NCBI GenBank assembly: GCA_030068145.1
Contig: JAPJBO010000492.1
Coordinates: 103,811 to 167,810, forward strand
DNA from: Diplonema papillatum
Taxonomy: Eukaryota; Euglenozoa; Diplonemea; Diplonemida; Diplonemidae
Length of the DNA stretch: 64,000 nt
Direction: 5' to 3'
Shown here: piece after piece, positions 19,998 to 59,757 of the stretch
Layout: the number at the start of each line of letters is the position of its first letter
Position numbering within the stretch: position 1 is the first letter of the stretch
Program-made: the position numbers and the translations under genes
The notes under the pieces: generated by a model
The model's database searches: none
The model's input: the letters and a program-made list of their open reading frames with translations, nothing else
What the model was told of the DNA's origin: nothing

Positions 19998-20491
19998 CCC
20001 CTACACGGTGCACTAGTCATTAGGAATTCAGTGTTCTTACTAGTAAAATTTCTAGTGAAAATGTCTTACTAGTGCCACTAGTCATTCTTACTAGTGCCAC
20101 TAGTCATTCTTACTAGTGGCACTAGTAAGAATGACTAGTGCACTAGTAAGAATGACTAGTGCACTAGTCATTTTTGCTAGTGTTTTACACAGTAAAGTCC
20201 ATTTTTAGGCGGTGGATATGGTGTGGGTGTCCGACCCACGCTCGAATACTGTTCCGCAGGTTCGTCCTGCCGCTGTTGTGTGCACGCAGCAACATGAATG
20301 GTGAACACAACAGGTTGCCGAGAAGAACAAGTGAATGGGATAAGCATGGCCCGAAGTCTGGGGTGTGATGGGTGGGGGATTGCAAGAACGTGTTTGGAAT
20401 GGGTATGTGCTCAGGGTGTGATGGGTGGGGGAGGGGGGAACAACGGAAGAAAGGGCCATGTGGCATAGAGTGCAATTCAGAGGAGGTAAGA

Positions 20492-22048
20492 CTACCTTCC
20501 ACCCGTGTGGGCATCGCGCATGTGGGCATCCCTTCTGCGTGCATCGGCGAACCTTTGCATGCACAGGGGGCAGGTCTTCTTGTCAAGCTTCTCAGCATGA
20601 ACGTACAGCAGGTGTTGGGTCAGCCCGCCCTTGCGAACTGTCTTTTTGCACGATGGACATTGCGTTGTGCATTCGCAGGTTACTGTAGGGCGGTGGTGTG
20701 CGTCGTAGTGTGCGAAGAGGCCGTGGATTCGCGTGTAGCTCTTCTGGCTGATAATACACCCGTGCTCGCTGCTCTCGTTTTCAGGGTCGGTTGTGCAGCC
20801 CCGCTTCCGAAGGGCTGGTTTGGGTGCCCACGTATGCCGGAGAACTGAACGATGGGGACAGAAGTTTCGTAGCAGTCCTGCTCGTGAAGGTGTTCTTCTC
20901 AAGATTTGCATTTGCAACGAGAAGCCGTGGCACAACAACCCGACTTCCGATGAGGAGGAGGATCAGGACGAGGATGACGATGCGGACAGCAGGTTTTCTG
21001 CGGCTTGCTTCCACACCGTACTTCGTCCAGTGATGCACTTGCAAAATGGTGTCGTACTGGTACAGGTGTGGGAGGGGATTGCGACACGCGGGCGCGAGGT
21101 CAGGCGCGCTTCGCTTCGTGTCCAGGCTCTTGAGGTGCTTTGTCTGCAGCTCGATTGCCTGGAAGTCGCGTTCCATTGTCTTCTGGGACGTGCAGGCGGA
21201 CCACTTTTGCGCTCACCGTTCATCTGCATCCTCTTCTACCCGACTAGCATCCGGAAGTGTCCGGATCACGAGCCGTAGCATGCCCTTCACATCGTGCAAG
21301 GCTGGTGTGATGACATGCGCTGGTTCCGTGATACGGGCGGCAATGTTGCAGTGGAAGCCCTGCGCATGCATTTCCTGGATGCTAAGCCGTTTGCATCTGT
21401 GCAGGTGTGCCAACCGCGTCTCAATGCAGGTTGCACAAAAGGCACTTCGGTGCCCGCCACCGCCCACGCCTCGAAAGAGCGACCACAATTCTGCGTGGTC
21501 ACCACCAAACACAAATCGACTCAGAGGAATGATTGCATTGTTCTTGCGGAACGTACTTTCCTGAATAGCGCTCAGATGCGGCAGGCAGCCGAAAATCCAC
21601 CATGAGTGGAAGACAGGCTTCCGCTTATCGCACACAGTAAGAAACCGCGTCGCCTTGAGGTCCCCGGACAGTCCAACAGCAAGACGCTGCCCCCTTTTGC
21701 CCCACGGAAGGCGTTGCCTGGTTTGTACGCGTCCATTGACACAACCACTGCGGGTGGGCAGCCACCCTGCTCCAGTGGAAACGTGGACAACAGGAACGAA
21801 ATTGCCTTCGGGGTATCCCCGACCAACTCGTCGGCCATCGCCTTGAACCCTGCTTCGCGTGCAGCAAGGGTGTTGTAGGACAGCCCCATGGTCAGGCCAA
21901 GTTCGCTATTAATTAGCGAGCCCAGCTGGGCACACTGACGCATAGACATGCCGAATCGCATTCTGTTCTCTGCAATGATGCCACCGATAGCGCGCGCTGT
22001 CGATGCATGGTATGCATCCATTGTTGTTTTCCCCCTGCGGTGTTTCAA
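20492..22048 (-). pseudogene. Putative transposase with C2H2 zinc fingers, interrupted frame
   Basis: Read leftwards from 22048 the frame starts MKHRRGKTTMDAYH and includes VVVSMDAYKPGNAF. Near 21635-21600 homology-like composition continues in another frame (SRFVFGGDHAELWSLF, then HLHRCKRLSIQEMHAQGFHC). It changes frame again to 20938-20492, which carries two fingers (CPSCKKTVRKGGLTQHLLYVH and CPLCMQRFADARRRDAHMRDAH). The shifts may be mutations or unrecognised introns. The GL(F/Y)A(H/Q)YDA(H/Y)HRP and QHLLYVH motifs recur in the element at 25.2-26.4 kb. I cannot assign a transposase superfamily. Confidence 0.6.
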
Positions 22049-22194
22049 GGCTGGCGATGTGGGACCGTACGAGTATCGTACTACGTAAGAACTATTGCAA
22101 CGCGCCCTCCTCTCTGGCCGAGACCCCGACTCCTGTCCATCAGGGCTGACATCATCGTCAACACATGCTCATTTTGTTTTTTGTTGGGAGTAGT

Positions 22195-22870
22195 CCTGTT
22201 GACGATGACGATGACTGTTGACGAAGACAATGGCAGCCCTGATGGACAGGAGTCGGGGCCTGGTGGTTCATAAAGTATCCTGGTGGTTCCACATTGTTCA
22301 CCAGCGAGTGCACTTGGGCCAGAGGATGGGGCGCGTTGCAATAGTTCGTACGTAACTTTGTGTAGTATGATTCTCGTACGGTCCCGCATCGCCAGCCTTA
22401 TCACTCACAAAGCACCGCAGGGGAAAACAACAATGGATGCATACCATGCACCGACAGCGCGCGCTATCGGTGCCATCATTGCAGGGAACAGAATGCGATT
22501 CGGCATGTCTATGCATGTGCCCGGCTGGCTCTCTACAGCAGTGAATGGCGAGCTTGGCCCGACCACGGGGCTGTCCTCCACAACATCCTTGCTGCACGGA
22601 AACGCATGCGCAGGGCTTCCGCTGCAACATTGCCTCACAACACAAGAGGTTCTTGGGAAACTCCTCTGCCAGGCGACTGGAAATGTTGTGCGCACTTACG
22701 GCAGGTGGCTTGGCAACCTAGTGTTCACCATTCATGTTTCTGCGTGCACAACAGCGGCAGGACGAACCTGCGGAACAGTATTCGAGCGTGGGTCGGACAC
22801 CCACACCATATCCACCGCCTAAAAATGGACTTTACTGTGTAAAACACTAGCAAACATGACTAGTGCACTA
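22195..22870 (+). mobile_element. Inverted, internally deleted copy inside the ACTAGT element
   Basis: From about 22195 rightwards the sequence repeats, inverted, the region leftward of 22190, including GKTTMDAYHAPTARAI now on the plus strand and the terminal segment at 22715-22870. Most of the gene's middle and the zinc fingers are missing. The element is therefore a head-to-head pair of one long and one short copy meeting near 22190. Confidence 0.75.
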
Positions 22871-23165
22871 GTCATTCTTACTAGTGCACTAGTCATTCTT
22901 ACTAGTGCACTAGTCATTCTTACTAGTGCACTAGTCATTCTTACTAGTGCACTAGTCATTCTTACTAGTGGCACTAGTAAGAATGACTAGTGGCACTAGT
23001 CATATTACTAGTGCACTAGTCATTCTTACTAGTGCACTAGTCATTCTTACTAGTGGCACTAGTAAGAATGACTAGTGGCACTAGTCATATTACTAGTAAG
23101 ATTTCTTACTAGTAAGTTTACTTCAAAATGACTAGTGATTGGCCTTACTAGTGCACCGTGTAGGG

Positions 23166-23945
23166 CAGTGAAGCTGGTAAACGTTGAGTAAACGCGTTTA
23201 CTCCAAAATGAGTAAACGTAAACGTTTACGTTTACTCGCGGTAAACGTTTACTCGCCTACAGAGCACGGTTAGACCATACTTGGCCTCCTGGCACAATCC
23301 ACGTTCCATCAGGCTGTCCATCTCTTTTATGGCGGTGCCAAGCATCACCCCACCGAGTTCTTCGGGCGTTGGGGGTGATAGAGATCCCATGGTGGTAGCA
23401 CACACCCGCCTTCGTCGTCAAGCTGAAGGCAGCAAGAAAAACGAGAAAGCCAAGACGAAGCAGCTGAATATGGTGCCATTCCTCACTCGAGCGACCACTG
23501 CAGTGGACGCCCACGAAGCCATCAGGGACTTCTTCTACGAAGAAGCCATCGGGTTTAACAAGGCTACTGGTCGTTCGTTCCTGACCGTGGCTTCAGTCCT
23601 GTGCGGGCGCAGCCGCCAATGCTGCTGCCTTGGCCGAGCAGGTGCTCAGCAGAGGCGGTGGAGAAGGCCTTATCGCAGAACTTGCAGGTTACCTTGCGCA
23701 TCTTCGATCCGGGTGCTTCCGTGAATGTCACCCCCTCCCGGCGTCTCCTTTGCGCCTGTTCGCCATTTGTGACGAAAGGTCCGTCTGGATATTTTACTTA
23801 GTTGCCCCTCTTCCTTGATAGATTGCGTTTCCAGTGGATGCCGCCCTTGATACAGTAAACGCTTACACAACGTTTACTCAACGTTTACTCAACGTTTACT
23901 CCAAAATGAGTAAACGTAAACGTTTACCGTTTACCTGGAACACTG
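23166..23945. mobile_element. hAT-like mini-element with inverted GTAAACG arrays
   Basis: Termini CAGTGAAGCTGGTAAACG and, inverted, CAGTGTTCCAGGTAAACG. Flanking octamers GTGTAGGG and CCCTAGGG agree in the last five bases, an imperfect 8-bp target duplication as expected for hAT. GTAAACG arrays occupy 23180-23255 and, inverted, 23852-23935. Plus-strand 23461-23596 encodes AIRDFFYEEAIGFNKATGRS, like the AIARFFY-x-GIPFNV start of hAT transposases. Minus-strand 23790-23600 encodes a BED-finger-like KVTCKFCDKAFSTASAEHLL. The two parts face each other, so the gene is rearranged and dead. Confidence 0.7.
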
Positions 23946-23953
23946 CCCTAGGG

Positions 23954-25160
23954 GGGGTCAAAAGGTCTTTTTTTGCGTCAAAATGGTGACATTTTCAGCC
24001 TGTAGACTTAACGGCAGTTTAAGGCAAAAACCCCATGCAACCCGCCTCAGAAATGCCCGGAAACGTGTTTTTGGGGGAAGTTTCATGGAAAATGGCCCAG
24101 GGGGGGGTGTATTAGTTGATGGTTTTAGGGTGGACACCGTTTGGTACCGGCTAGCAGCCTGTGTGTGTGCTTCACTGTTCATACCATGCAAAGATGAGGC
24201 TACAATCACGTGCAGGCAGCCACAAATGGAAGCAAGAAAAGGGCAAACGACACCCAGGAGGAAGGCAGCTATGAACGTTGCTCGTCTGGATGGTTAACAA
24301 CGTCCCAAAAGGCTCTCTGAGTCTTGCGCAAGCTGAGGTGTTGTTGACACCGCAGGCAGCAGCTCTTCCCCGAACTTCTGCTGGAGCGATATTCACAAAG
24401 TTCGATGTCTTTCCGAGAAAAACAATGAGATGCTCTCATCCGTAGTGGGATTTTCCAGATCCCAACGTTTTTGTTGAAGGGATGCACGCGACAGTGTCTT
24501 TTATTCAAGTTCGCCTTTCGTACACCACCCCGAAAGGGTCGCATTGCACACGCACGGAAGACAATACTGGTCACCGGGGTGTATCTCTGGTACCTAACCC
24601 CAACGCACGTTGAGCTTGAACAAAAATAGAAAACTGGACTTGAACGAAAAGGTTCGGCGGTGGATTTATAGGACTGCCACGACATAGCAGCTCAGGGCAG
24701 GGTATCTGCAGCTTGCGGTAGCACGCTACACGACACAGGCCACTACGAAAGCTGGCGCTGACGTCAAGGACTCGAGGGGGCGGCACGTTACGAAGCCGTA
24801 CCTCATTGAGTCGCTTGTCAATGCCTCCTACGAAGCCCCACCATCCCCAACTCTCAGGAAAGTCTTTTGAGTAAAAATGCATAGGTTTGGGCAGTGTTGT
24901 TTTCCTTCTTCGGTTCATGCTGTCACTATTTTTGGGGTTGTCACCTAAAAAGAAGAACACCGGTACCAAACGGTGTCCACCCTGAGTCCAAAAATTGGGC
25001 ACTCGTAAAAAGGCCTTTTCGGGGCACTTCAGCAGCCAAAAAGCATGTTTTAGGCATTTCTATACGGTTCTGGGGCGGTTTACCAAATTTTATTGCCTTT
25101 TAGGAGCCCCTATGTGGTTCCCAAAAAAATGACCTATTTTGACAGCTTTTGACCCCCACC
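23954..25160. mobile_element. Inverted-repeat element without a gene
   Basis: About 200 bp at 23947-24151 and 24960-25160 are diverged reverse complements. Both outer ends read GGGGGTCAAAAG, and both inner ends read GGTGGACACCGTTTGGTACCGG (within 20-22 bp of match). The interior has no recognisable coding sequence. Confidence 0.65.
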
Positions 25161-25164
25161 ACGT

Positions 25165-26410
25165 ACTTGTCATACGTATGACAAGTACATGTACTTGTCA
25201 TATTATGACAAGTACTATGACAAGCATGTACTTGTCATATGACAAGTACATACTTGTCATATGACAAGTATTTACTTGTCATATGACAAGTACATGCTTG
25301 TCATATGACAAGTACATACTTGTCATAATATGACAAGTACCTACTCGTCATATGACAAGTTTTGTGAAGGAATTACTCTACTCTCGCATACAATTGGCTG
25401 AGAAAAGTATGGTACAACCCAGGAATTGGACACAGACAGACCAACTGCCCTGGACAAGACAAAAACGAGAACAAGAAGTCCGCGACATGGGAAGCGATGG
25501 GCATCCCACATTTCCCGACAAACATTCGACGCGACATGCTCTCCTTCGAACTCCAGACCAAACATGTTGATTTTCAACTTCCGTCCGCCGCCTATTCCAC
25601 CAGTTCCAGAAGTTCTGACGAACGACGCAATACACTTGTGTAAGTGTATTGCTCGTGCTAACGACCAGGCCACCCAAAAGTTGGACTCGACTTCGCAACG
25701 TGGGCTTTAGTGAGCACAGCGGCAAAAAGACAGGATGGGGCCAGAAGTATTTTGGTAGCCCGCAAGACGAGGGGGCGATTCTGAAGGCGTGTGTTTGTAG
25801 GGAAACAGGGAAACACCGTGGCGTGTTTGCTGAAGCAGAGGACAGTACCGAGGAAGCAGTCTTTTGTTGCATGTGCCGAAAGACTGGCTTTTCCAGCATC
25901 AGGGGTTTGTATGCACAATATGACGCCTACCATCGGCCTCCATACACGCGAGTCAAGCAGAACTGCCCGTTCTGCAATAAGCATGTCGGGACACTTGGCT
26001 TTAGGCAACACTTACTGTATGTGCATCCAAAGAAGCTGATAACAAACCCTGTCCTCTGTGCCTCCAACCTTTTGTTCTCGAAGGGAACGGAAACACATCT
26101 TCCGTTCTTTCCTCGTTTCGTGGTGCCACTATCTTTATGGGATCCTCGGATGAACTAGCCCTTGATAAAAGCTTGCCTGTAGACACGCAATTCCTTTCTT
26201 CCATTTGCACCGCAGATCTCGCACAAACCCCTTTGGGACCTAAATGCAGGGACTGGGAGAGCTTTCCGTCTTTGTTTCTTCTGCCACAGAGCTTGATCGG
26301 CTTGAATCAATACTTTTTGCGAGTATTGGGTTATATACCATACTCTTCTCAGCCAATTGTATGCGAGACTAGAGTAATTCCTTCACAAAACTTGTCATAT
26401 GACAAGTAGG
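25165..26410. mobile_element. DNA transposon with inverted CTTGTCATATGACAAG arrays
   Basis: Left array of ACTTGTCATATGACAAGTA units at 25165-25362; the right side keeps one unit (26393-26410). Just inside, 25355-25420 and 26330-26400 are inverted repeats containing GGAATTACTCTACTCTCGCA on the left and its near complement on the right. The only coding remnant is a zinc-finger protein on the plus strand. Confidence 0.75.
25649..26158 (+). pseudogene. Zinc-finger transposon protein fragment
   Basis: Encodes CPFCNKHVGTLGFRQHLLYVH preceded by SIRGLYAQYDAYHRPPYTR. This is clearly related to the minus-strand protein of the ACTAGT element, although the two elements have different satellites. The second finger has lost its Cys pair and the rest of the transposase is missing. 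Confidence 0.65.
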
Positions 26411-27199: not shown

Positions 27200-28985
27200 T
27201 GTCACGGCGTGTGCAGGGTATCGATTTCCTGGCTGGTGACATTTTCCCGCTGGTCCATGTAGCAAACCTTTTTCGACGAGTTTTTGCTCGTTTTCAGCTC
27301 CGATGAAGAGATCCGTGAAAAATAGACCCGGAGACGAAAAACTATGTGCGTGGTTCGGGGCCCTTTACAAGTTGCAGGGCGCCGGGCGTGGAAGCCGCCA
27401 CGTGTGGATTGAGAAGGACGGGAATCGATCCCCTGGGTGGTGGCATTTTCCCGCCGGACCACGCGGCAGGCCTTTTTCGACGAATTTTAGCTCGCGATCA
27501 GCTGCAATGAAGAGATCCGTGAAAAATAGACCCGAAAACGAAAAAGTATGCGCGTGGTTCGTGGGTCCGTGCATGATGCAGGGCACCGGGTGTGGAAACC
27601 ACCAGGTGGGCATCGAGCAAGACGGGTATCGACCCCCTGGTTGGTAACTTTTTCCCGCTGGTCCATGTAGCTGACCTTTTTCGACGAATTTTTGCTCGCA
27701 ATCAGCTCCGATGAAAAGAACTGTGAAAAATAGACCCGGAAACGAAAAAGTATGTGCATTGTTCGTGGGTCCGTGCAAGATGCAGGGCACCGGGCGTGGA
27801 AACCACCGGTGTGCACTGGGAAGAACGGGTTTCGATCCCCTGGTTGGCGACATTTTCCCGCTGGTCCACATAGCAGACCTTTTCCGACGAATTTTTGCTT
27901 GCGAACAGCTCCGATGAAGAGATCCGTGAAAAATAGACCCGGAGACAGAAAACTATGTGCGTGGTCAGTAGTTTTTACAATTTGCAGGGCACCGGGCGTA
28001 GAAACCACCAGCCTGATCAGGTGTGCATTGAACACGGACGGTATCGATCCCCTGGCTGGTGGCATTCTGTTGCTGGTCCGCGTAGCAGACCTTTGTCGAC
28101 AAAGTTTTGCTCGCGATCAGCTTCGATGAAGAGATCCGTGAAAAATAGACCCGGGAATCAAACACTACGTGCGTGGTCCGTGGGTTCTTACAGGATGCAG
28201 AGCACCGGGCTTGGAGACCACCCGGTGTGCATTGAGCAGGACGGGTATCGATCCCCTGGTGGTGGCATTATGTTGCTGGTTCACGCAGCAGACCTTTTTC
28301 GACGACTTTTTGCTCGCGATCAGCTTCGATGAAGAGATCCGTGAGAAATAGACCCGGGAATCAAACACTACGTGCGTGGTCCGTGGGTTCTTATAGGATG
28401 CAGAGCACCGGGCGTAGAAACCACCCGGTGTGCATTGAGCAGGACGGGTATCGATCCCCTGGTGGTGGCATTATGTTGCTGGTTCACGCAGCAGACCTTT
28501 TTCGACGACTTTTTGCTCGCGATCAGCTTCGATGAAGAGATCCGTGAAAAATAGACCAGGGAATATGTGCGTGGTCCGTGGGTTCTTACAAGATGCAGAG
28601 CACCGGGCTTGGAAACCACCCGGTGTGCATTGAGCAGGACGGGTATCGATCCCCTGGTGGTGGCATTATGTTGCTGGTTCACGCAGCAGACCTTTTTCGA
28701 CGACTTTTTGCTGAGCTCTGATGAAGAGATCCGTGAAAAATAGACCAGGGACCATCCAGTATGTGCGTGGTTCGGGGGTCCTTACAAGATGCAGGCACCG
28801 GGCTTGGAAACCACAGGTTTGCAGTGGGAAGGACAGGAATCGATCCCTGGCTGGTGACATTTCTTGGCTGGTCCACCGTGACTCCACGTGGCAGACTTTT
28901 TTCGAATTCCTGCTCGCGATCAGCTCCGATGCGAGAAATGGACCCGGAAATGAAAAGGATTGTTTGTGGTGCGTCGGGTTTCCCC
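27200..28985 (+). repeat. ~204-bp tandem repeat array
   Basis: About nine units. Each contains GATGAAGAGATCCGTGAAAA, TAGACCCGG, TGCAGAGCACCGGGC, ACGGGTATCGATCCCCTGG, and CAGACCTTTTTCGACGA. Spacings between GATGAAGAG marks are 203-213 bp with one of 188. The unit is 68 codons long, so frames stay open across units, but stop positions differ. The GATCCCCTGG phrase recalls a tRNA B box; function unknown. Confidence 0.9.
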
Positions 28986-29860: not shown

Positions 29861-30023
29861 TTTTTCAGTGGCTCTGGAAGGACACAGGGGTGTGGGAAGG
29901 CACCAGAATAGGTTGACACCTTCTGAGAACAGGTTCTCTGGAAGATTTCGTCATCGATCTTCTCATCGAAGAAAAAATTTGTCGGAACGCACGCCGGGAT
30001 CGCAGGAGGCGAAGTACTTTCTA

Positions 30024-30262
30024 TTACTATCCCCAAACTTTTATACCATTCTATTACTATCGCAAACTTTTATACCATTCTATTACTGTCCCCAAACTTT
30101 TATACCATTCTATTACTATCGCAAACTTTTATACCATTCTATTACTATCGCCAAACTTTTATACCATTCTATTACTATCCCCAAACTTTTATACCATTCT
30201 ATTACTATCCCCAAGTTTTTATACCATTCCATTTCTATCCCCAAACTTTTGTACCATTTGGT
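30024..30262 (+). repeat. ~30-bp satellite, left array
   Basis: Eight units of TCTATTACTATCCCCAAACT plus TTTATACCAT. The inverted array is at 35455-35610, and the unit continues past the 23.9-kb insertion at 59492. Confidence 0.9.
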
Positions 30263-35454: not shown

Positions 35455-35610
35455 GCAATAGTAATAGAATGGTATAAAAGTTTGGGGGTAGTAATAGAAT
35501 GGTATAAAAGTTTGGGGGTAGTAATAGAATGGAATAAAAGTTTGGGGGTAGTAATAGAATGGTGTAAAAGTTTGGGGGTAGTAATAGAATGGTATAAAAG
35601 TTTGAAATAG
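35455..35610 (-). repeat. ~30-bp satellite, right array
   Basis: Five units of GTAATAGAATGGTATAAAAG plus TTTGGGGGTA, the reverse complement of the 30024-30262 family. The last unit is split at TAA by the 23.9-kb element. Confidence 0.9.
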
Positions 35611-38764: not shown

Positions 38765-38774
38765 CCGAAAACCA

Positions 38775-41025: not shown

Positions 41026-41040
41026 TGAAACCGAAAAAAA

Positions 41041-41112: not shown

Positions 41113-41294
41113 GCATGAAATCCGAAATGAATGAATGAATGAATGAAAAACAAGCACCGTCCATCCGCTGCTCAGAAGAGCCGCGTCTGGAACAGGTCAG
41201 GCGTTACTAGCCTATTTGCGCCAAGAGACACGCGCACGAGTGACAGGTCCACAGGTTAGGGGTTAGGAGGGAGTGGGGGGGGGGGGCGGTTGAT

Positions 41295-47090: not shown

Positions 47091-49695
47091 TCGTCTGCTC
47101 GAGGTTGGTGATACGGGGGTCCGACGGCATCGGTTGAGGGTTCACAGTGGGTGCAGGTACAGGGGACGCGGATTGTGAACACGGGGGCGGGGCAGGCGGT
47201 ACTTCCTGTCCAACGGATCGACCGCCTTCCAGGGGGGTTTCGTTGATGTCTTCGTCGGGGGCGCCGGCCGCTTCGGCTGCCTTCCGCCACGCGTTCGCAG
47301 CACGATCCCCGTACATCAGGTCGAAGTATGCGCGAGGGCGTTTCACGAGGCTGTCGGAGAGGGGGTCAGGGTAGGCCGTGGTATCGGGAGCTTCCGGGGA
47401 ATGAGCGGCGGGCGGTTCACCTCCCTTCAGCTTTGCTTGTTCGAGCGGGGGGCGGGGGGTATGCCGGAAGCGCAGAGTGACCCCGTTCCTCACGTACGAA
47501 TCAACAGCCGGGTGTTTCTCGGACTTAACGACCCAGTCTGCCGTCAGGGCCCCCCGGCGCTTCTGGAACAGCGGGACGACAGGCCATCCTGCTGAAGACA
47601 ACTTCTGCGCGAGCGTGTCAGCGACAGTCCGAGACGGGACGCCCTCAACAAGAAAGTAACCGACCTCGACTTTGCCGTCAGGGAACATAAGCCCGATGAC
47701 CTTGTCCCCATCAGCCTTTGCGACCCTGATCCCGTAGTCGCCGCGGCACTGGACGATACCCCTCGAGCGATGTCCAAGCGTCTCGTGCCACTGGATAGCT
47801 TCCGAGAGGGATGCAGAGTCACCGAGCATGATCTCGGTGTACTCTTGCCGGGCTTCCTCAGACATGGCGAAATAAATGCCAGCAGCAAAAGTAGACGCCA
47901 GAACGCTGTCGAGGGACGATTTGGGGACACCGAACGAGACCTCGTACGTTTCGAGGTAGGCACCCTTCGTGAACAGCGGGCATTTTTTGGCGCCCCTGAA
48001 GCCGGTGGTGATGTTGCGGCAGACGCAGGCCCGAACGTACATCCGCATGGCGAGCGAGACGTTTTCCGTCAGGGCCCGGGTTGCCGTTTCGCGTTGGTCG
48101 TGGTCGTCGAGGTCCCTGAGCAGCACCGTCGCCTTCAGCTCCACTTCTTCCTCTTCCCAGCCGGTGACAAAGGGACGGGGTTGTTGAACGGAGTGCACAG
48201 AAGTCTTGGGCGGGTGCACAGGTCCGGCGTTGTCAGCCAAGACTGGGTCCGTGGTTCGCTGCCGGGTGTGTGGTGCGGATGTGGCGTTGCGGTCGAGGTA
48301 CGGTCTACGGTCTGCGCCACGTCGATTGTCAGCGTCGTGTCGAGGCAGTTGAGCGGGGCGAGGTTGATTACGTCGTCGGCTGCTGTCGCCATGTCCCCTG
48401 CTGTCCCCTCGGGAGGGAGACGAGTGGACCGCGCGAGGAACATAGTCGTCGGGTTCCCTGCGAGACTGCCTATACCCCCCGAGCAGACGAGGGCACACGC
48501 TGAGGCTCCCACCCAGACCGGCGGTGAACCCGTTCTCCCCAAGCGTCTTGTCCAGAGGGACTGGGCCGCCGCAGCCACGAATCACACGATCCGTCGGACC
48601 AGCGATGAGGCCGCGGGAGACAAGGACGTCGTCCAGTCGCTCATGGAGCGAGGCCGTCACGCAGTGGCGTCGGTTGTCGTTGCCGATCACCATGAAGGTG
48701 GCCGAAGGGGCGCTGGCGGGGCGCTTGGGGAGGGGGGTAGCGAAACACGTCAGTGTGGCGTGCATAGGGGCCGGTGCATCGAAGCCGTTGCGTCCAGGAG
48801 ACAAACCGCCCCAGTCCTGGGACCTCAGTCGGAGCCAGATGTTGGCGAGAAAGTACAGCGCGAGCAGCAGCCAAAACAAGCACCCGAAACTTCCAAGTCG
48901 GGTTGTCGTCTCGTTGAAAGGAGCAAGAAGGCGTGGGGACCGCAGCAGACGGCACAATGTTCCAACAAGCCGGCGGGAGAGAAGCGATGCCATCAGGAGA
49001 CCGGCGGGAAACAAACTATGCCCAGGGAAGAGCTTCTCGCGGACAGCCAGCTCGTACCAGACGTGGGACATAGCCAACCGGACCTTGTCGCGGATAGCCA
49101 GCTCGTACCAGACGTGGGACATAGCCAACCGGACCTTTGTCGCAGCACCAGTAGACAGTCGTTGTAAGGGTGGGCGTTCGCTGCGCGACCTAAACTTGGC
49201 CAGTAAACGGTCGTACTCCCGCTGTTGACGTCGCTGCTTTCGGGTGAGATGCCTCAGGACGTTGCGAGGAGGCTGAGGGAGCGGCGGCAGGTTGAGGGCT
49301 CGCGGTCTGACGATGGCGGGCCGGACCGGATCATCAGGGCGAGGAGGAACCGACGTGATGGTCGTTGGCCTCGTCAGCGGAACTTCGACGGGCTCGGTGT
49401 CGATGGACGCTGGCCTCGTCAGCGGAACTTCGACGGGCTCGGTGTCGTTTCCTGCGCGTTCCTGCGCACCGGCACACATAGACGGGCCGGCGCAACTGTC
49501 GAGCCTGCCAACGTCAGGCCTGGCGCTGGCGTGAGGGCTGGCGTCGTAGACGCCGCCGTCGGGTGGTGTTGTGCACAGCCACCAGCCGATTAAGGCTAAC
49601 GTCGTTATCGCCATGTGGGGGTTTGTTGTCTTTATTGTGTAAGTTTTTTTTGGAAGGATACCAATAAAGTACCACGGGCTCAATTTCAATTTCAA
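46744..49695 (-). CDS. LINE A ORF1: gag-like protein with ubiquitin-like domain
   Basis: 983 codons from the first ATG; the ATG 27 codons later (MAITTLALIGWW, 49614) is a better start, since the upstream part encodes spliced-leader-like DNA. Residues about 331-407 resemble ubiquitin in length and pattern (RVIRGCGGPVPLDKTLGENG, then SLSVCPRLLGG with a terminal GG). Before it lie a hydrophobic start, two tandem duplications (EPVEVPLTRP; VRLAMSHVWYELA) and a hydrophobic segment (269-289, CLFWLLLALYFLANIWL). After it come a conserved-looking alpha/beta region (510-745) and a Pro/Gln/Arg-rich basic tail suited to RNA binding. No CCHC knuckle was seen. Expected role: coating the element RNA. Confidence 0.75.
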   Translation of the reverse strand: MKLKLSPWYFIGILPKKTYTIKTTNPHMAITTLALIGWWLCTTPPDGGVYDASPHASARPDVGRLDSCAGPSMCAGAQERAGNDTEPVEVPLTRPASIDTEPVEVPLTRPTTITSVPPRPDDPVRPAIVRPRALNLPPLPQPPRNVLRHLTRKQRRQQREYDRLLAKFRSRSERPPLQRLSTGAATKVRLAMSHVWYELAIRDKVRLAMSHVWYELAVREKLFPGHSLFPAGLLMASLLSRRLVGTLCRLLRSPRLLAPFNETTTRLGSFGCLFWLLLALYFLANIWLRLRSQDWGGLSPGRNGFDAPAPMHATLTCFATPLPKRPASAPSATFMVIGNDNRRHCVTASLHERLDDVLVSRGLIAGPTDRVIRGCGGPVPLDKTLGENGFTAGLGGSLSVCPRLLGGYRQSRREPDDYVPRAVHSSPSRGDSRGHGDSSRRRNQPRPAQLPRHDADNRRGADRRPYLDRNATSAPHTRQRTTDPVLADNAGPVHPPKTSVHSVQQPRPFVTGWEEEEVELKATVLLRDLDDHDQRETATRALTENVSLAMRMYVRACVCRNITTGFRGAKKCPLFTKGAYLETYEVSFGVPKSSLDSVLASTFAAGIYFAMSEEARQEYTEIMLGDSASLSEAIQWHETLGHRSRGIVQCRGDYGIRVAKADGDKVIGLMFPDGKVEVGYFLVEGVPSRTVADTLAQKLSSAGWPVVPLFQKRRGALTADWVVKSEKHPAVDSYVRNGVTLRFRHTPRPPLEQAKLKGGEPPAAHSPEAPDTTAYPDPLSDSLVKRPRAYFDLMYGDRAANAWRKAAEAAGAPDEDINETPLEGGRSVGQEVPPAPPPCSQSASPVPAPTVNPQPMPSDPRITNLEQTIAGLAASVQQIFGAMQTQMQQTAHHPAPQPAVVPSQDSVVSQSPPQQTQGSVSGSSQSTAEARRDPPAERPATPNPHKDRDPRPGNRNRADKPRRNSCNSDNFRGRSAGRGRPLA

Positions 49696-49729
49696 AAATT
49701 TGGAAACCGCACCCGGGTTAGGCTTGGGG

Positions 49730-49766
49730 CAATAAAGTACAGAAACTGTAGCTTTTAAATCGTTGG
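49730..49766 (-). other. Diplonemid spliced-leader sequence at LINE A 5' end
   Basis: 37 nt on the minus strand, CCAACGATTTAAAAGCTACA then GTTTCTGTACTTTATTG. It equals positions 3-39 of the diplonemid spliced leader as I remember it. The next bases are CCCCAAGCC, not a GT donor, so this is not a normal SL RNA gene; it looks like a leader already joined to an mRNA. A shorter leader-like end plus donor-like bases, TACTTTATTGGTATCC, lies about 60 nt downstream, and AATTTTTG (Sm-site-like) lies between them. Confidence 0.85.
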
Positions 49767-49892
49767 CGAAAAACGGAAAAAGCCAGCTCCGAACTATTAT
49801 CTAGTTCAAAAACAATACACTTTTTAGTGTAGAGAAAAGTGGGGTTGGCTCGAATAGAGGCTATTCACATTGCATGTTCATAGGACCTCCAG
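49767..49892. other. Spacer between LINE A 5' end and satellite array
   Basis: AT-rich, no gene. It contains CACTTTTTAGTG, a short palindrome. If the leader marks the LINE 5' end, this is pre-insertion target DNA. Confidence 0.5.
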
Positions 49893-50262
49893 TCTCGAAC
49901 CACTGTTACATCAATGTAATGGGCCAAATCTGACGGAAAACCACTGTTACATCGATGTAATGGGCCGAATTTGACCGAAAACCACTGTTACATCAATGTA
50001 ATGGCCAAATCTGACCGAAAACCACTGTTACATCAATGTAATGGGCCAAATCTGACGGAAAAACACTGTAACATCAATGTAATGGCCCAAATTTGACGGA
50101 AAACCACTGTTACATCAATGTAATGGCCCAAATCTGACGGAAAACCACTGTTACATCGATGTAATGGGCAGAATCTGACGGAAAACCACTGTTACATCAA
50201 TGTAATGGGCCAAATTTGACGGAAAACCACTGTTACATCAATGTAGTGGGCCAAATCGGCTA
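49893..50262 (+). repeat. 41-bp satellite array 3
   Basis: Nine units, plus orientation, between LINE A and LINE B. Confidence 0.95.
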
Positions 50263-50308
50263 AAATGACCATCCGGATTTTTCGAAAAGTGGGCACGAAA
50301 ACCGAAAA

Positions 50309-50391
50309 AAGTCTACTTGCGGGGTTCGAACCCGGGACGTCAGAGCTTGGTACCCAGGGTACTACTGCATCAACCACAGGAGCTCTGGCAA
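50309..50391 (-). other. tRNA-like sequence at 3' end of LINE copy B
   Basis: Minus strand has an A-box-like GCTCCTGTGGTTGATGCAG and B-box-like CCCGGGTTCGAACCCCGC, followed by a T run and CGGTTTTCG, as after the copy A neighbour. Stems are incomplete, so it may be a pseudo-tRNA. The sequence differs from the one beside copy A. Confidence 0.5.
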
Positions 50392-50470
50392 AAAATGAAT
50401 GAATGAATGAAAAACAAGCACCGTCCATCCGCTGCTCAGAAGAGCCGCGTCTGGAACAGGTCAGGCGTTA

Positions 50471-51422
50471 CTAGCCTATTTGCGCCAAGAGACACGCGCA
50501 CGAGTGACAGGTCCACAGGTTAGGGGTTAGGAGGGAGTGGGGGGGGGGGGCGGATGATAAAATTGTGACGAATAAGAGTTTCGTTAGCTTGGCATGCCCT
50601 CGAGGACCGTCGTGGGTGTGTTTGGCCCTGACCGGAGTCTGGGCTGTTGACGGCTTTGTCGCTCGGGTTCTGCCTGCGCTACGACTTGCTCCGTGGTTTC
50701 GAGCGGCACTGCGCTTTGCTCGTCGTGCTTTTGCTCGTGCTGAACTCGTTGCCGTGTTGGCGTTCAATACGCGACGAACCTTTGCAACGACGCGCTGAGT
50801 GCCCTCACCGTGCTGTTCCAGCTGCGAGCTGGGGAAGGGACGAGGGGGGATAAGGGGGGATACTGGTTGTGTTGTGACGAAAAAGAGGTGTTTCGTTAGC
50901 TTGGCATGCCCTCGAGGACCGTCGTGGGTGTGTTTGGACCTGACCGGAGTCTGGGCTGTGGACGGCTTTGTCTCTCGGGTTCTGCCTGCGCTACGACTTG
51001 CTCCGTGGTTTCGAGCGGCACTGCGCTTTGCTCGTCGTGCTTTTGCTCGTGCTGAACTCGTTGCCGTGTTGGCGTTCAATACGCGACGAACCTTTGCAAC
51101 GACGCGCTGAGTGCCCTCACCGTGCTGTTCCAGCTGCGAGCTGGGGAAGGGACGAGGGGGGATAAGGGGGGATACTGGTTGTGTTGTGACGAAAAAGAGG
51201 TGTTTCGTTAGCTTGGCATGCCCTCGAGGACCGTCGTGGGTGTGTTTGGCCCTGACCGGAGTCTGGGCTGTGGACGGCTTTGTCTCTCGGGTTCTGCCTG
51301 CGCTACGACTTGCTCCGTGGTTTCGAGCGGCACTGCGCTTTGCTCGTCGTGCTTTTGCTCGTGCTGAACTCGTTGCCGTGTTGGCGTTCAATTCGCGACG
51401 AACCTTTGCAACGACGCGCTGA
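50471..51422 (-). repeat. 312-bp in-frame tandem repeat in LINE B 3' region (three units)
   Basis: Units start near 50571, 50875 and 51187; the last two are exactly 312 bp, that is 104 codons. On the minus strand a 306-codon frame (50471-51391) runs through all three, rich in Ala/Arg/Lys (ARAKARRAKRSAARNHGASR). In copy A the same frame is broken by stops. It could be a small basic third protein, but a structured 3' RNA whose period is a multiple of three is at least as likely. Confidence 0.75.
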
Positions 51423-51941
51423 GTGTCCTCACCGAGCTGTTCCGGCTGCGAGCTGGGGTAGGGACGAGGGGGGGGTTACCGATTGATGTTGTTTGTTGGG
51501 ACTCGTTGACGGAGGAGTCCGGGTGGGGATGGACAACAATAAAGTGCTGGCACCGACTACTCCCCTTTAGGGCCTTCCAGCCGGGTTCCGAGTGGTGCTT
51601 ACTGGAGCGCAGCAGACTGAACTGTACGATCTCGACAAGAGTCTTGTGAAATAAGACGAGTGCACGTTTGTACCAATTAAGAAAATAAGACGAGTGCACA
51701 TTTCGCTCAGCGGTTAGCCTGCGTCCTCTTCTGGCGATGCGTACGAAGCGCGCGCTGGACGCGGAGCCTCAGTCGGGCTGCGCGGGGCGGTGCGGCGTCG
51801 TCCGGCGTCGACGGCGACGTGCTGCGAACTGCGAGAGCACCGTGGCAGGTGACGGGTTCAGGATGGCCGGCGCGAGAGTACCCAGGCCCCGGCGATCCCC
51901 TGCCTCGGACTGCAGCCGCTGCGTGGACGGGTGACGTTGCC

Positions 51942-54900
51942 TCACATGATGGGCACGAGCCCGTACTCGTGGTTCGGGGGGGCTTCGTCCTTGTCAGACT
52001 CCACAAGGACTTGGAAGGGTGGGAGGGCGCCAGCTCTCTGGAGGTAGAACAGGGCGTGCTCGGGATGGACGAACAGGTAGTACCAGAGGGATTCGATCGG
52101 ACCGCCTGGGTCCTTTTTGATCCGCCTCGTGATATCATGTCGCATCGCCGCCCTCAAGGGTGCCGTTATTAGGTCACGGCAGTGTACGAACAAGTGCAGC
52201 AGGGGGCTGGTAGAGCGGACCCCGCAGACCGGACACGGGAGGAAATGGGACTGCAACTCGGCCTCGCTGAAGGAGCGCCAGTCCGTGGCGTACAGCGTCA
52301 TGATCAGGCGGTGGTGCCCGGTCCTCAGCTGGCGCACTTCGCGTTCAGCCCTCGGCGTGAGATGACGGCGTCGGGGGATCGGCCGGCCATGAACAATCCG
52401 GGCAAACGGCGAGAGGTTCCCGTGGCCGTCCGCGCGCTCGAATGCTTCCTTGGCACCTGCCTCGCTGCTGTTCAGCCGCAGATACGTCCGATAGCGGCAG
52501 ACTGCACCAGCGACGGTTAGGGGGAAGGGCTCGGGGTGATCCGAGGAAGAGGCTCCGGCGGCCCGTCGGTACCCGAGAGCTGCAGCTTTGGCCAGCACGT
52601 CCGCCGCGTCGTTGCCTTCCAGCCCGCAGTGCCCGTACACGAAGTGCAAGGTGACGTCGTATCCCCTCGCCTCCATTTCCGACAGGATTGTCCAGCACTC
52701 TATCGCCAGTGGTTCGACTTGTGAATGGGGGCCGGCGCTGAGAGTTTTTAGAAACGACTGGGAGTCGCTCAGGACGAGGATGTGGAGTGGGCGGGACGTC
52801 GGGGCGAGATGTTGTCGGAGAAACACAAGGGCCGAGTAAAGGGCGACCTGTTCCGCGCGGTAGCTGTGGACGTGCTTGCCTACCGGGCATGAACGGGAAG
52901 TCGTGTGCCGATTTCCGGTGGCTGTCTTCAAGTCAGCGACGTCGCGCAGGCTGGGCGTGATCGACGGTTCGAACTCGAAGTACAAACCGGCACCGCCCCA
53001 CGCTGTTTTGTCCGCATAGCGTTTCAACCAAGGGCGATGTCGCTCGTCCCACCTGTCGGCTATCGAGGGCGGCGGCTGGGGCGGGGGGGCACCGTCGAGC
53101 ACCGAGCCGTCTATCCACGCTGAGCAGTCCGGCGGCTCGAGCCGGTTCAGCCGGCTTTCGACAATGCGCCTCTTCTCAGCAGCCGAATCGCCCTTCTTCC
53201 CCGGCAGGGTGGCGACGATCGTCACTTTGGGACTCGGCGTCCACGGGGCAAACGGGTTGAATACGAATGCCTCTCGTTTGCACTCAACCGTTCCGGCCTT
53301 CTCGCACAGGGCGTCGTAGCTGCGCCTCAGAGTCGTGTTCATGGCGAGGTCGTTCTGCCAGAGCGTGCTCCGGAGTCGCATCCTCTCACGCAGAGCGGCG
53401 ACACGGAGATTCGCTATCGCTCGGAGCGGCAGAATCCCGGATTCCTGTTGCGCCGAAAAATCCGAGGTGTTCTTTCTGCACCCGAGGAGAATGACCTGGG
53501 CGCGCCGGTGCAGCCGCTCGAGCGTCGTGACCAGGGGGGATGTGGACCGAAGGAGGTATGGGCCGTAGACCGACAGGGCGTACGTATACGTCGGCAGGAC
53601 GTACGTCAGATACAGCGTGCGCAGCGTACACGAGTTACATCCGAACGACTTTCCGGAAAGGTGACGCAGGAAGTTCATCTTCAAAGAAAACTTGTCGACG
53701 ACGCGTTGCATGTGGGGGACGAACGTGAGCTCCGAGTCTATGACCAGGCCAAGGAGCTTGGTCTTGTCGACCCAGCGTAGGGCGTCGGCTACTCGGATGG
53801 TCACCAGGCGGTTTTTGGTGGCGTCCTTGTCGCCGCCATTTTTCTCGTCGACTGAGACGATCAGCTTGCCGTGGTGTTGGTGCCAGGGTGAGTGCTCGTC
53901 CGGTTCCAGGAACTTCCAGGTCGACCTAGACTTCAACGCTATCACGTAGTCGTCAGGGACCAGAACATCGACCGCTGTGGCGTTGAATCTCGTCGTGACA
54001 GGATAGGGCTCAGGGGCACCCGGATCCCGGAAGAGGACGCCCTCTGTCTTCAGTTTAGACAGGTGCATCTTGGCTTTGAACGTCCACTCCTCGACCACAT
54101 CCACAACCTCCTGCGTGTACTTCTCAAGTTGAAAGTGGGACGGGGATGAGACGACGACGCCATCATCGTCGGCAAAGAGCGAGAAGTTGATCCAGGATCG
54201 ACTCTCAGAATCAGCAACGATACGCTTGTTGAGAGCCTCAAGCGAGGTGCCGAGGTCGTCAATGTGGTACAGGAAGAGAACCGGCCCGAGGACGGTTCCC
54301 TGGGGTACGCCGTGCTTCAGGTGGAACTTTTCGCCGGTAGCACCATCGACTTTGAAAGCCGCCTTCCTGTTTCGCAAAAAGGACTCGAGCCACACAAGGA
54401 ACTTAGGAGGGACACCCTTACTCTGCATTGCGTCGAGCAGGAGTGCGTGGTCGACGGTGTCGAAGGCGTTTGCCAGATCGAACGAGAGAAGGCAGACACG
54501 TCGGAAGGTCGGTCCGGCGCAGTCAATCGTTGTCACGATGGAGTAGAGCTGCTCCTCGGTTCCGCGTTGTCTACGGAAGCCGCCCTGCCGAGTACAGAAA
54601 GGTAGGACCTGCGTTACACTGTCGTTCTCCGTCAGAAAGACCAGCCGGTTCTTGACAATCACCTCCATCAGCTTAGAGGTAACGCTCGTCAGAGAGATCG
54701 GGCGGTAACCCTCGGGTAGGGAGTGGTCCCTGCCTGGCTTCGCGGCGGGAATGACATGGGCATCACGCCAGGAGTCCGGGACGAACCCCTCATCCCAAGA
54801 AATGTTGAGGAGCTCGAGGACCAGACGCTTGGCTCCTCCGTCCAGCCTCGACAGGAACTCAGAACAGATGCCGTCCGGGTCAAGGGACGTCTTCGGGTCG

Positions 54901-55585
54901 AGGTCCTTCAGGGCACGATCGAGCTCATCCTCGGATATAGGCCCGCAGCCAATGTCGTCGTCGGATGGGCGCTTTTTCGGGGCCCATCGGTGGGAGGGGA
55001 CTGCGCTAGCGCCCCCACATACGGCCTCGAGGTGCCGACCGAAGAGCTCGGCTTTGCCTTTGGCGTCGACACAGAAAGCCTTGCCGTTCCACAGCGGGGG
55101 AATGGATTGGTGCTGCCCTCCCCTGCCGTCTAGCATCCGCACCTGGCGGAAAAGGAGAGCTACACCAGTGCATCGGTTGATCCGGACGGCAATCTTATCC
55201 CAGTGGCTGGTCTTAGCCCGCGTGGCAGCCTCGCTGAATTGGGACAACTTTTCGAGATGTGCGCAGATCTTGTCCGGAGAGTCGGGTTCTGCCTGCAACT
55301 CAGCAAACGCGGTGGCTTTTTCGCGTTCCAGGATAGTGAGCTCCGGGGTCCACCAGGCTTTGTACGCGCGGCGACCCTGGGTGTGTTTAGGCACAAAATC
55401 GTGAATGGCCCGGCGGAAACAGGAAGCGATGCGTTTGGCGAACTGGGTGTTGGTCGCCGGTCTGTTGGCGAGAAGGGCTGCGCTCTCAGCCTCTAACCGG
55501 ATCATCATCTCTTCCCAGTCTGCTCGTTTCCAGGAAAACCATTTGGGCCGAGGGGCACGAGGCTGCCTGTACCCCCTCGGAACTT
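51942..55585 (-). pseudogene. LINE B ORF2, 5'-truncated but otherwise open
   Basis: Open from the truncation point to the same stop as copy A; the first ATG left is at 55508 (1188 codons). RT (FADD at 445-448 of that count), RNase H (D800, E886, D915, D970) and the zinc cluster are complete. The endonuclease, the start and ORF1 are missing, so it should not move by itself. Confidence 0.9.
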
Positions 55586-55717
55586 AAAAAAAAAAAAAAT
55601 CTTTTTCTTTTTTTTTTGCATGAGGCACCACTTTCTTTTGGCGGCTCCGGAGAGCCGCGTTCCAGTTTTCGGGCAGGCTTTACGGGCCTCTTCGGGCCGG
55701 AAGGCATGCCAGACAGA
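55586..55717. other. Junction sequence upstream of LINE B
   Basis: Starts with runs of A and T at the truncation point, then about 100 bp of unique sequence (GGCTCCGGAGAGCC), then the 41-bp satellite. Confidence 0.6.
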
Positions 55718-55796
55718 TTACATCAATGTAATGGCCCAAATCTGACGGAAAACCACTGTTACATCAATGTAATGGCCCAAATCTGACGGAAAACCC
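55718..55796 (+). repeat. 41-bp satellite, two units
   Basis: Plus orientation, between copies B and C. Confidence 0.95.
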
Positions 55797-57360: not shown

Positions 57361-59363
57361 TATGCCCATTACATCGATGTAACAGTGGTTTTCCGTCAAA
57401 TTTGGGCCATTACATTGATGTAACAGTGGTTTTCCGTCAAATTCTGCCCATTACATCGATGTAACAGTGGTTTTCGGTCAAATTTGGCCCATTACATTGA
57501 TGTAACAGTGGTTTTCGGTCAGATTTGGGCCATTACATTGATGTAACAGTGGTTTTCGGTCAAATTCTGCCCATTACATCGATGTAACAGTGGTTTTCCG
57601 TCAAATTCTGGCCCATTACATCGATGTAACAGTGGTTTTCGGTCAAATTTGGGCCATTACATTGATGTAACAGTGGTTTTCGGTCAAATTTGGGCCATTA
57701 CATTGATGTAACAGTGGTTTTCCGTCAAATTCTGCCCATTACATTGATGTAACAGTGGTTTTCCGTCAGATTCTGCCCATTACATCGATGTAACAGTGGT
57801 TTTCGGTCAAATTTGGCCCATTACATCGATGTAACAGTGGTTTTCCGTCAAATTTGGGCCATTACATTGATGTAACAGTGGTTTTCGGTCAAATTTGGGC
57901 CATTACATTGATGTAACAGTGGTTTTCCGTCAAATTTGGCCCATTACATTGATGTAACAGTGGTTTTCCGTCAAATTTGGCCCATTACATCGATGTAACA
58001 GTGATTTTCCGTCAAATTCTGCCCATTACATCGATGTAACAGTGGTTTTCGGTCAAATTTGGCCCATTACATTGATGTAACAGTGGTTTTCGGTCAGATT
58101 TGGGCCATTACATTGATGTAACAGTGGTTTTCCGTCAAATTCTGCCCATTACATCGATGTAACAGTGGTTTTCGGTCAGATTTGGGCCATTACATTGATG
58201 TAACAGTGGTTTTCCGTCAAATTCTGCCCATTACATCGATGTAACAGTGATTTTCCGTCAAATTCTGCCCATTACATCGATGTAACAGTGGTTTTCGGTC
58301 AAATTTGGGCCATTACATTGATGTAACAGTGGTTTTCGGTCAAATTTGGGCCATTACATTGATGTAACAGTGGTTTTCCGTCAAATTTGGCCCATTACAT
58401 TGATGTAACAGTGGTTTTCGGTCAGATTTGGGCCATTACATCGATGTAACAGTGGTTTTCCGTCAAATTTGGGCCATTACATTGATGTAACAGTGGTTTT
58501 CCGTCAAATTCTGCCCATTACATCGATGTAACAGTGGTTTTCGGTCAAATTTGGCCCATTACATTGATGTAACAGTGGTTTTCGGTCAGATTTGGGCCAT
58601 TACATTGATGTAACAGTGGTTTTCCGTCAAATTCTGCCCATTACATCGATGTAACAGTGATTTTCCGTCAAATTCTGCCCATTACATCGATGTAACAGTG
58701 GTTTTCGGTCAAATTTGGCCCATTACATTGATGTAACAGTGGTTTTCGGTCAGATTTGGCCATTACATTGATGTAACAGTGGTTTTCCGTCAAATTCTGC
58801 CCATTACATCGATGTAACAGTGGTTTTCCGTCAAATTCTGCCCATTACATCGATGTAACAGTGGTTTTCCGTCAGATTTGGGCCATTACATTGATGTTAC
58901 AGTGGTTTTCCGTCAGATTTGGCCCATTACATTGATGTAACAGTGGTTTTCCGTCAGATTTGGGCCATTACATTGATGTAACAGTGGTTTTCCGTCAGAT
59001 TTGGCCCATTACATTGATGTAACAGTGGTTTTCCGTCAGATTTGGGCCATTACATTGATGTAACAGTGGTTTTCCGTCAGATTTGGCCCATTACATCGAT
59101 GTAACAGTGGTTTTCCGTCAGATTTGGGCCATTACATTGATGTAACAGTGGTTTTCGGTCAAATTCGGCCCATTACATTGATGTAACAGTGGTTTTCCGT
59201 CAAATTCTGCCCGTTACATCGATGTAACAGTGGTTTTCGGTCAGATTTGGGCCATTACATTGATGTAACAGTGGGTTTCTGTGAAATTCGGCCCATTACA
59301 GTGATGTAACAGTGGTTTTCCGCCAGATTTGGCCCATTACATTGATGTAGCAGTGGGTTTCCG
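57361..59363 (-). repeat. 41-bp satellite array, right, inverted
   Basis: About 49 units, the reverse complement of arrays 1-3. It forms the right subterminal array of the 23.9-kb element. Confidence 0.95.
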
Positions 59364-59612
59364 TCGGAAAATCTTCATGCAGTTTTGGGGAAAAAATATT
59401 CCCACCAGAGGGGGGGGGGGGGGACCCACCCACCAAAATTTTGGCGAAAGTAGTGGGCAGTTGGCCCGCCCGGGTAATAATCCGGCGTCCCTAATAGAAT
59501 GGGCAAAAAAAGTTTCAAACGTCATATTTAGGACTTCACCTCGGATCGCAGAGAAAATGGACGAATGATGAACCCAAAATGAAAAGGTTGTCAATTCCTG
59601 GTGAAAACACTA

Positions 59613-59697
59613 AGGGCGCGCCAATCGCGCCAAACGCGCCAAACGCGCCAGAAAACAGGGTTTTCTGGCGCGGCCTGGCGCGGCTGGCGCAGGAGCC
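59613..59697 (-). repeat. GGCGCG array, right
   Basis: GCGCCAAACGCGCC-type repeats inside the right end of the 30.5-kb element, inverted relative to 29216-29309. Confidence 0.85.
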
Positions 59698-59757
59698 ACA
59701 CTGGGAATAGTGACATTTCCGTTGAAAATGCTCAGTCAGCTATTTTTCTTTCAGTAT

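Follow-up and report, generated by a model that had tools for sequence, protein, structure and literature searches.

Why should DNA transposons of different superfamilies end in the same way? The question is raised by a 64,000-nucleotide stretch of one contig of the Diplonema papillatum assembly (JAPJBO010000492.1; hereafter the window), in which seven elements, E1, E2, E4, E6, E7, E8 and E10, carry mirrored arrays just inside their terminal repeats, each element having a unit of its own. Here we confirm that the mirrored-array pattern in these elements is real and strong, in agreement with an earlier note on this DNA, which described at least seven elements built on one plan with private, mirrored units. 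That note granted such arrays to each DNA transposon, which proved too strong. Tandem Repeats Finder and reading of the sequence revealed inverted repeats without an array in E3 and E5, so the plan is not universal, and no mirrored arrays were seen in a hAT element with an 8 base pair (bp) duplication nested in another E1 copy. We consider it probable that the arrays belong to several superfamilies of cut-and-paste DNA transposons in which subterminal binding sites have multiplied into arrays at the ends.

Mirrored arrays in the window and across the genome

E1, E2, E3 and E4 lie side by side (20002-26409; element coordinates are given without strand) and are followed by a nested group (30006-59542), in which E10 contains both E5, itself the host of E6, and E7, itself the host of E8 and of insertions resembling long interspersed nuclear elements (LINE-like). 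Arrays were called with Tandem Repeats Finder, which recovers those of all seven elements independently, and target duplications, like the ends of the elements, were determined by reading the sequence. The arrays are paired as the earlier note had it, with the reservation that in the window the right array of E4 is worn down to about one unit and the left array of E7 is broken into four pieces.

The 271-Mb assembly (2910 contigs) was then searched for exact matches to patterns taken from the ends, the array edges or the units, the reversed patterns serving as controls. All eight reversed patterns gave 0 matches, compared with 55 to 2932 for the real ones: 245 for the E1 unit, 163 for the E2 end, 55 for the inner edge of the E4 array, 212 for the E6 end, 112 for the E7 end, 123 for the E8 end, 263 for the E10 unit and 2932 for the frame CCCATTC...AACTTTTTGCCCATTC. 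At most the first 100 places were listed for each search (all 55 for E4), and neighbouring listed matches within 12 kb were scored for the expected inverted order. Among the matches listed, 113 of 127 neighbouring pairs from six of the seven families were so arranged (E1 14/15, E2 21/21, E4 15/15, E6 20/30, E7 10/10, E8 33/36). The one E1 exception consists of two elements adjoining each other (L060/L061; loci fetched for comparison carry L numbers), and E10, for which the listed matches are of the left-type unit only, was left out of this count.

The orientation of individual units was counted in eleven copies each of E6, E7 and E8, namely the window copy and ten fetched ones per family, picked since both of their exact ends were listed. 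Together, 1035 of 1037 units in these 33 copies obey the orientation rule (E7 725/725, E8 232/232, E6 78/80). Random orientation, which the earlier note had named as a finding that would speak against it, is thus not what either count returned. The same left-arm versus right-arm order is seen in the window copy of E10 and in one copy each of E8b, E8c and E12, three sibling families with mirrored arrays that were met in the fetched copies. As a control, 10-kb stretches drawn at random were also examined, four of the 40 planned. A small inverted pair was found in one of them (L070, 2835-2990), where a 32-bp unit lies beside an 11-bp array, possibly representing another family of the plan, and no mirrored pair was found in the other three.

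Element lineages and their target duplications

The claim that the elements come from different superfamilies is borne out by the presence of both hAT and Mutator-like element (MULE) transposases and by target duplications of 2, 3, 7 and 9-10 bp. Duplications in copies of E1, E2, E4, E6, E7 and E8 were scored by eye, and the resulting classes are 2 bp (E1, E4), TA (E2), 3 bp (E7), 7 bp (E6) and 9-10 bp (E8, E10). Relative to the earlier note, the duplications of E1 and E6 had to be corrected, to 2 bp and 7 bp, respectively.

E8 (36739-38764) is a MULE-type non-autonomous copy inside the left array of E7, with ends GGGTCAAWTCCCATTC and units of 29-30 bp, CCCATTCACGAGC...TTTTTG, of which ten make up the left arm and eleven the inverted right arm. 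The 10-bp duplication of the window copy is CCGAAAACCA, and duplications of 9-10 bp, within the 8-10 bp range of MULEs, flank 10 of 11 copies. Three copies with different duplications (L032, L037 and L038) carry frames of 929-931 amino acids just inside one array. L032 matches the MULE transposase domain PF00872 (4.4e-5, 23.0 bits, cut-off 21) and, below its cut-off of 27.6 bits, PF10551 (1.9e-4, 22.2 bits); L037, the other copy scanned against Pfam, behaves alike, and L038 is 99.9% identical to L032 across 3.7 kb. The remaining eight copies (L029, L030, L031, L033-L036 and the window), compared with L032 at a 200-bp cut, match it over only about 250-435 bp per end, and the stretch in common is terminus plus array; in L029 a nested E8c array adds a further, weak alignment. 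Left arms are 88-99.9% identical to the left arm of L032 and right arms 90-100% to the right, as against about 81-85% between left and right, and the two arms, which hold 8-13 counted units, are therefore inherited as separate blocks.

The siblings E8b and E8c have 10-bp duplications (CTGTGGCCTC and CGCTGCCAAC, one copy each). Together with E8 and E10 they use units that mostly measure 29-30 bp (in E8b steps of 50 occur too), in which the blocks CCATTC and AACTTTT are kept and the core changes. E10 (30006-59542) is the outermost element, with a perfect 9-bp duplication, GGATCGCAG, at 29997-30005 and 59543-59551. Both of its arms consist of a 30-bp unit, TTCTATTACTATCCCCAAACTTTTATACCA: the left one spans 30019-30258, and the right one, which is inverted, spans 35459-35604 and continues from 59492, on the far side of E7. 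This unit frame and the 9-bp duplication point to a putative place in the MULE group. The earlier note had listed the 30-bp unit correctly and had missed its owner, E10; the cluster of TTGGCGCG near 59610-59690 could not be confirmed as an element. Genome-wide, there are 245 candidate MULE domains, 150 of which were scored and matched, a tally that has no bearing on how general the arrays are.

E6 (31249-33627) is a hAT-type non-autonomous copy with end CAGTGTGAGGTTTAGCTAC and mirrored arrays of GTAGC(C/T)TTTT units at 10-bp spacing. A perfect 7-bp duplication, CGAGGGA in the window, flanks 6 of 11 copies; one more has 6 of 7 bases, and in four none was seen. A hAT frame of 918 amino acids is present in copy L026 and a shortened remnant of 450 amino acids in L020, the two copies being 99.9% identical across 1821 bp from one end. 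The C-terminal region of the protein matches the hAT dimerisation region PF05699 (9.3e-6, 25.8 bits, cut-off 21.4), and comparison with solved structures returned four transposase chains, two of them named Hermes, at 0.0024-0.0094. Among the other nine copies, seven have about 180 bp in common at one end; for L021 and L027 no match reached 150 bp. The usual target duplication of hAT elements is 8 bp; E6 is hAT-like by its transposase, with an unusual duplication size. E12 likewise shows 7 bp (GTCACGG, one copy) and has in common with E6 the unit spacing of 10-12 bp and the CAGTGTG ends, the core being different.

E1 (20002-23162) has ends CACGGTGCACTAGT, a TA duplication in the window and mirrored arrays (approximately 20064-20182 and 22859-23097), whose unit of 21-22 bp is based on the palindrome ACTAGTGCACTAGT. 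E4 (25157-26409) has end CACCACGTACTTGTCAT and a large left array (25216-25360) with the palindrome TACTTGTCATATGACAAGTA every 22 bp. The two are alike in having CAC ends, palindromes that recur every 21-22 bp and 2-bp duplications. The last were counted in copies with both ends intact among twelve fetched E1 and ten fetched E4 copies plus the window, and found in 6 of 6 (two of which adjoin another E1 end) and 7 of 8, respectively; in L041, E4 is inserted in an E7 end with CA duplicated. Both also carry a zinc-finger gene. That of E1 (20495-21235, minus strand), degenerate in the window and 55% identical to the copy in L058, was detected by tblastn in the window and in all 12 E1 copies fetched, with weak C2H2/Di19 Pfam matches, below cut-off, in L057 and L058. 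Its homologue in E4 (25619-26155, plus strand), an open frame of 179 codons in the window, was found in 9 of 10 fetched E4 copies (not in L042) as well. The proteins of E1 and E4 are 34% identical over 152 amino acids (E 2e-26), and the genes differ by a proportion of nonsynonymous changes (pN) of 0.42-0.43 and of synonymous changes (pS) saturated at 0.83-0.87, L064, read in a wrong frame, being left out of these figures and of the dN/dS ratios below. An assignment of E1 to hAT was rejected: the 1253-amino-acid hAT-like frame in L057 belongs to the nested element mentioned above, which has its own 8-bp duplication, GCATAGAC. E1 and E4 possibly form a DNA transposon group so far undescribed.

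E7 (35614-59491), with ends GGGACGCCGGATTATTACCCGGG and a TAA duplication, has 41-bp units with TTACATCRATGTAA. The four pieces of its left array (35922-36738, 38767-39819, 49898-50257 and 55718-55795) are separated by E8 and LINE-like copies, and the inverted right array spans 57364-59365. Duplications are of 3 bp in 9 of 11 copies (TAA, also TAG, TAC, AAA, CAA and TTG). PIF/Harbinger elements make 3-bp duplications of the TWA type; the DDE_Tnp_4 domain that would place E7 among them gave 0 matches in the genome, in an exon-by-exon search that could miss an intron-split gene and that matched 1 of 14 control genomes. An E7-type copy in L018 (1921-3180) has a different 41-bp unit, with palindrome TGACATGTCA.

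E2 (23163-23948, about 0.8 kb) has ends GGGCAGTG...CACTGCCC, GTAAACG units inside both ends at a commonest spacing of 11 bp, and a TA duplication in 8 of 9 copies. The negative cases are E3 (23953-25158, ends approximate), which has short broken inverted repeats, and E5 (30543-34614, ends within a base), with inverted repeats of about 370 bp that are 89% identical.

Candidate recognition sites and alternative origins

The design of the unit tracks the lineage: 29-30 bp in the MULE group, 10-12 bp in the hAT pair, palindromes every 21-22 bp in E1/E4 and 41 bp in E7. The suggestion that array unit and element lineage go together thus stands in the few lineages seen, through the MULE frame, the hAT spacing and the E1/E4 palindromes. 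Conservation within units is uneven. In E8 units anchored on AACTTTTTG, CCCATTC is kept at 0.80-0.98 and the spacer at 0.39-0.67; in those anchored on CCCATTCACGAG, TTTT is kept at 0.72-0.98 and the spacer at 0.40-0.79. The bases beside the anchored palindrome of E4 are invariant and two spacer bases vary (0.46, 0.38). Within the E10 anchor, ATA varies (0.47-0.53) and AAACTTTT and CCATTC are kept (0.93-1.00), and the units of E7 are nearly uniform, a few positions excepted.

If the arrays are multiplied binding sites, each end would be occupied by a row of several copies of the element's own DNA-binding protein; synapsis and cutting would be confined to dense clusters near an end, and the many short chance matches in the genome would go unused. 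Inversion of the arrays would be needed for the two ends to face a single complex in the same way. The arrays would grow and shrink through tandem duplication, and in new families protein and unit would change together, spacing and frame staying as they are. Of the mechanisms that the earlier note had offered, we favour this one over foldback ends, which are true of E7 and unneeded as a cause, and over fresh products of repair.

Several observations weigh against such a model. Protein binding, synapsis and the co-evolution of protein and unit are predictions from sequence, and transposases are identified in two of the seven elements, hAT in E6 and MULE in E8, and not in E1, E2, E4, E7 or E10. 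The Pfam match of E6 to BED is weak (E 0.45, residues 309-337). How well the anchored block is conserved follows in part from the way units were picked and is given no weight as evidence, and the set anchored on AACTTTTTG mixes E8 units with E8c units nested in L029. Arm counts vary widely (0 to 76 counted units in E7, where L017 has a right arm only by this count, and the 8-13 of E8), so that no fixed number of units can be needed everywhere. Helical phasing of the hand-entered unit lengths, for which no claim is made, gave Rayleigh p values of 0.007 for 13 non-independent array families (including families 22 and 23, discussed below), 0.07 for eight lineages and 0.03 for five; a period of 10 fits better than 10.5, and non-mirrored arrays give p 0.03. 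The zinc-finger genes of recent E1 copies are barely constrained, given dN/dS ratios of 0.65-0.69 for L057 against three copies; ratios among other copies are 0.70 and 0.83, on very few changes. Lastly, the authors of a study of Hermes are sceptical that auxiliary transposases bound a long way in from the ends play a part (PMC10368747; this and the other published sources are cited from parts of their text).

About five lineages use the plan, two of them named by transposase, the count resting on ends and duplications. We entertain, tentatively and as something rather doubtful, the wider idea that these lineages are unrelated and each evolved its own mirrored arrays, in which case some property of the host, such as its nuclear organisation or its silencing, would favour recognition of ends through many sites. 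On this view, E1/E4 would be an undescribed group, with CAC ends and 2-bp duplications, whose small zinc-finger protein and palindromic site are diverging together; if true, E1 and E4 would give natural orthogonal protein-site pairs.

An origin of the arrays as harmless by-products of hairpins, gap repair or replication slippage, with no binding role, seems to us unlikely, even if E7 presents much of what it would lead one to expect. E7 has the long inverted ends of tandem repeats that characterise foldback elements, its inverted arrays meet head to head in two copies (L009 and L016), and its arrays combine the wide range of arm lengths with higher-order periods of 122-123 bp. The arms of E8 point the other way, since their inheritance as distinct blocks disfavours fresh repair, and neither the uneven conservation within units nor the frame common to sibling families is readily accounted for by such by-products.

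Still less probable is that frequent minisatellites were merely carried along by the elements and came to be mirrored when they lay inside terminal repeats. Repeats do make up 52% of the Diplonema assembly (PMC10161547). Clustering of the arrays of the window and 64 loci (L009-L072) gave 66 families, with some related units split apart (families 9 and 12, for example), and only 11 of these have an inverted neighbouring pair, many arrays being without a mirrored partner. Two of the 11, families 22 and 23, were rejected as members of the plan, their inverted neighbours stemming from nesting around an E8 end. Arrays lying mostly outside elements had been named in the earlier note as a second finding that would undo its claim, and some ACTAGT-type arrays do lie outside E1 ends in fetched loci (L063, about 296-436; L009, 215-290), although they may belong to neighbouring elements; in L009 an E7 copy landed within such an array (215-300 and after 3579), another instance of an array-bearing element going into an array. 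In the window, by contrast, unit matches outside the own element are absent for six of the seven families, the exception being one stray 8-base match of E6 type. Moreover, autonomous and other E8 copies have, at the 200-bp cut, terminus plus array alone in common, and unit design goes with duplication class, neither of which suits passive carriage.

That the arrays serve expression instead of cutting, as promoter or silencer sequences to which the zinc-finger protein of the element binds in the manner of TNPA of En/Spm, which has both suppressor and transposition roles (PMC2613891), is very improbable, for although the zinc-finger gene of E1 and E4 is separate from any recognised transposase, arrays at both ends, even in E8 and E6 copies without the transposase gene of their family, better fit cutting and synapsis, with which a role in expression would be compatible.

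Known systems and other features of the window

The earlier note knew of no described system of this kind, which, for the plan itself, is contradicted by the literature on Muta1, Tm1, Galileo, CACTA and Hermes elements. Muta1 of Aedes aegypti is an active MULE, as shown in yeast, with subterminal tandem repeats, which are carried by 10 of 12 MULE families with long ends in that mosquito (PMC5225508). Like E8, it combines a MULE transposase, 8-9 bp duplications and subterminal repeats within long inverted ends, and has non-autonomous copies with common end regions and other interiors; its repeats are of 9-15 bp instead of 29-30 bp, and in D. papillatum other kinds of element in the same genome follow the plan (PMC5225508). 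Tm1, a Mutator/Foldback element of root-knot nematodes, resembles the elements described here in its composite ends with a variable number of tandem repeats of about 14 bp, 9-bp duplications and Phantom-like transposase, and differs in being a single family, with another unit and in other species (PMC3169594). Galileo of Drosophila has long, internally repetitive inverted ends in which several transposase binding sites were proven experimentally; it differs in its P-type transposase with a THAP domain (PMC3688188). In CACTA/En-Spm elements, subterminal repeats that differ between subfamilies are bound by TNPA, a protein encoded besides the transposase (PMC2613891). E1 and E4 resemble these in CAC ends and a zinc-finger gene, whereas their duplications are of 2 bp instead of the 3 bp of CACTA, and a profile search for Transposase_21 gave 0 matches in the genome, which is uninformative as no control genome matched either. 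In Hermes, BED domains bind multiple subterminal repeats (PMC10368747). E6 resembles it in its hAT transposase and in its multiple, here predicted, subterminal sites, and differs in the 7-bp instead of 8-bp duplication and in having its sites in short tandem arrays at 10-bp spacing (PMC10368747).

The plan is thus a device of a known kind, known elsewhere from single families; what is new and unusual is its spread over about five lineages in one genome. The published D. papillatum assembly, of about 280 Mb and repeat-rich, left rigorous identification of transposable elements for later (PMC10161547), and a limited search of the open-access literature, including parts of PMC10161547 and PMC12621601, returned no account of the plan in diplonemids; nor did a limited search by title return anything on transposase and repeat changing together. 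The present description gives a first account of how DNA transposons are built in a diplonemid genome. Earlier work on multi-site end recognition, as represented in the parts of these sources drawn on, took one element or superfamily at a time. Here several kinds occur together, with sibling sets (E8/E8b/E8c/E10, E6/E12 and E1/E4) in which the core of the site differs and its frame is retained, and it is therefore testable how protein and site can change jointly without loss of mobility, and what role the number and spacing of sites play.

Outside the plan, the left array of E7 contains a LINE-like copy with associated arrays (39830-49897, limits approximate, minus strand), and a second LINE-like copy (50258-55717) lies within the 41-bp array, which may be a preferred landing site for them. 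The label rests on the frames of the window copies, matches to RVT_1 being those of frames in L028 and L017. Each copy ends in a tandem repeat of 312-313 bp (41291-41898 and 50563-51473), the first of which is adjoined by a 16-bp array of AAAGTTCGGGCGAAGC (39871-41016), with similar 16-bp arrays in L021 and L027. On the minus strand at 49730-49766 there is a sequence that we take to be the diplonemid spliced leader, 20 bases of which match the window exactly once (expected 0.01), as does the 37-base string; the stray E6-type match lies inside it. A long LINE-like frame (46744-49800, minus strand) has this sequence just upstream of it, and no splice donor follows the sequence, which would fit genomic insertion of a copy made from a trans-spliced LINE RNA.

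A 203-bp tandem repeat at 27216-28876, also outside the plan, recurs within the E7 copy of L010 (1624-3285). No transfer RNA genes were found in the window with ARAGORN. A plus-strand frame at 9969-12155 has in-frame repeats of 60 and 99 bp (10465-11185) and EGF-like cysteine patterns, and similar cysteine-rich frames occur at 1660-2703 and 6378-7499.

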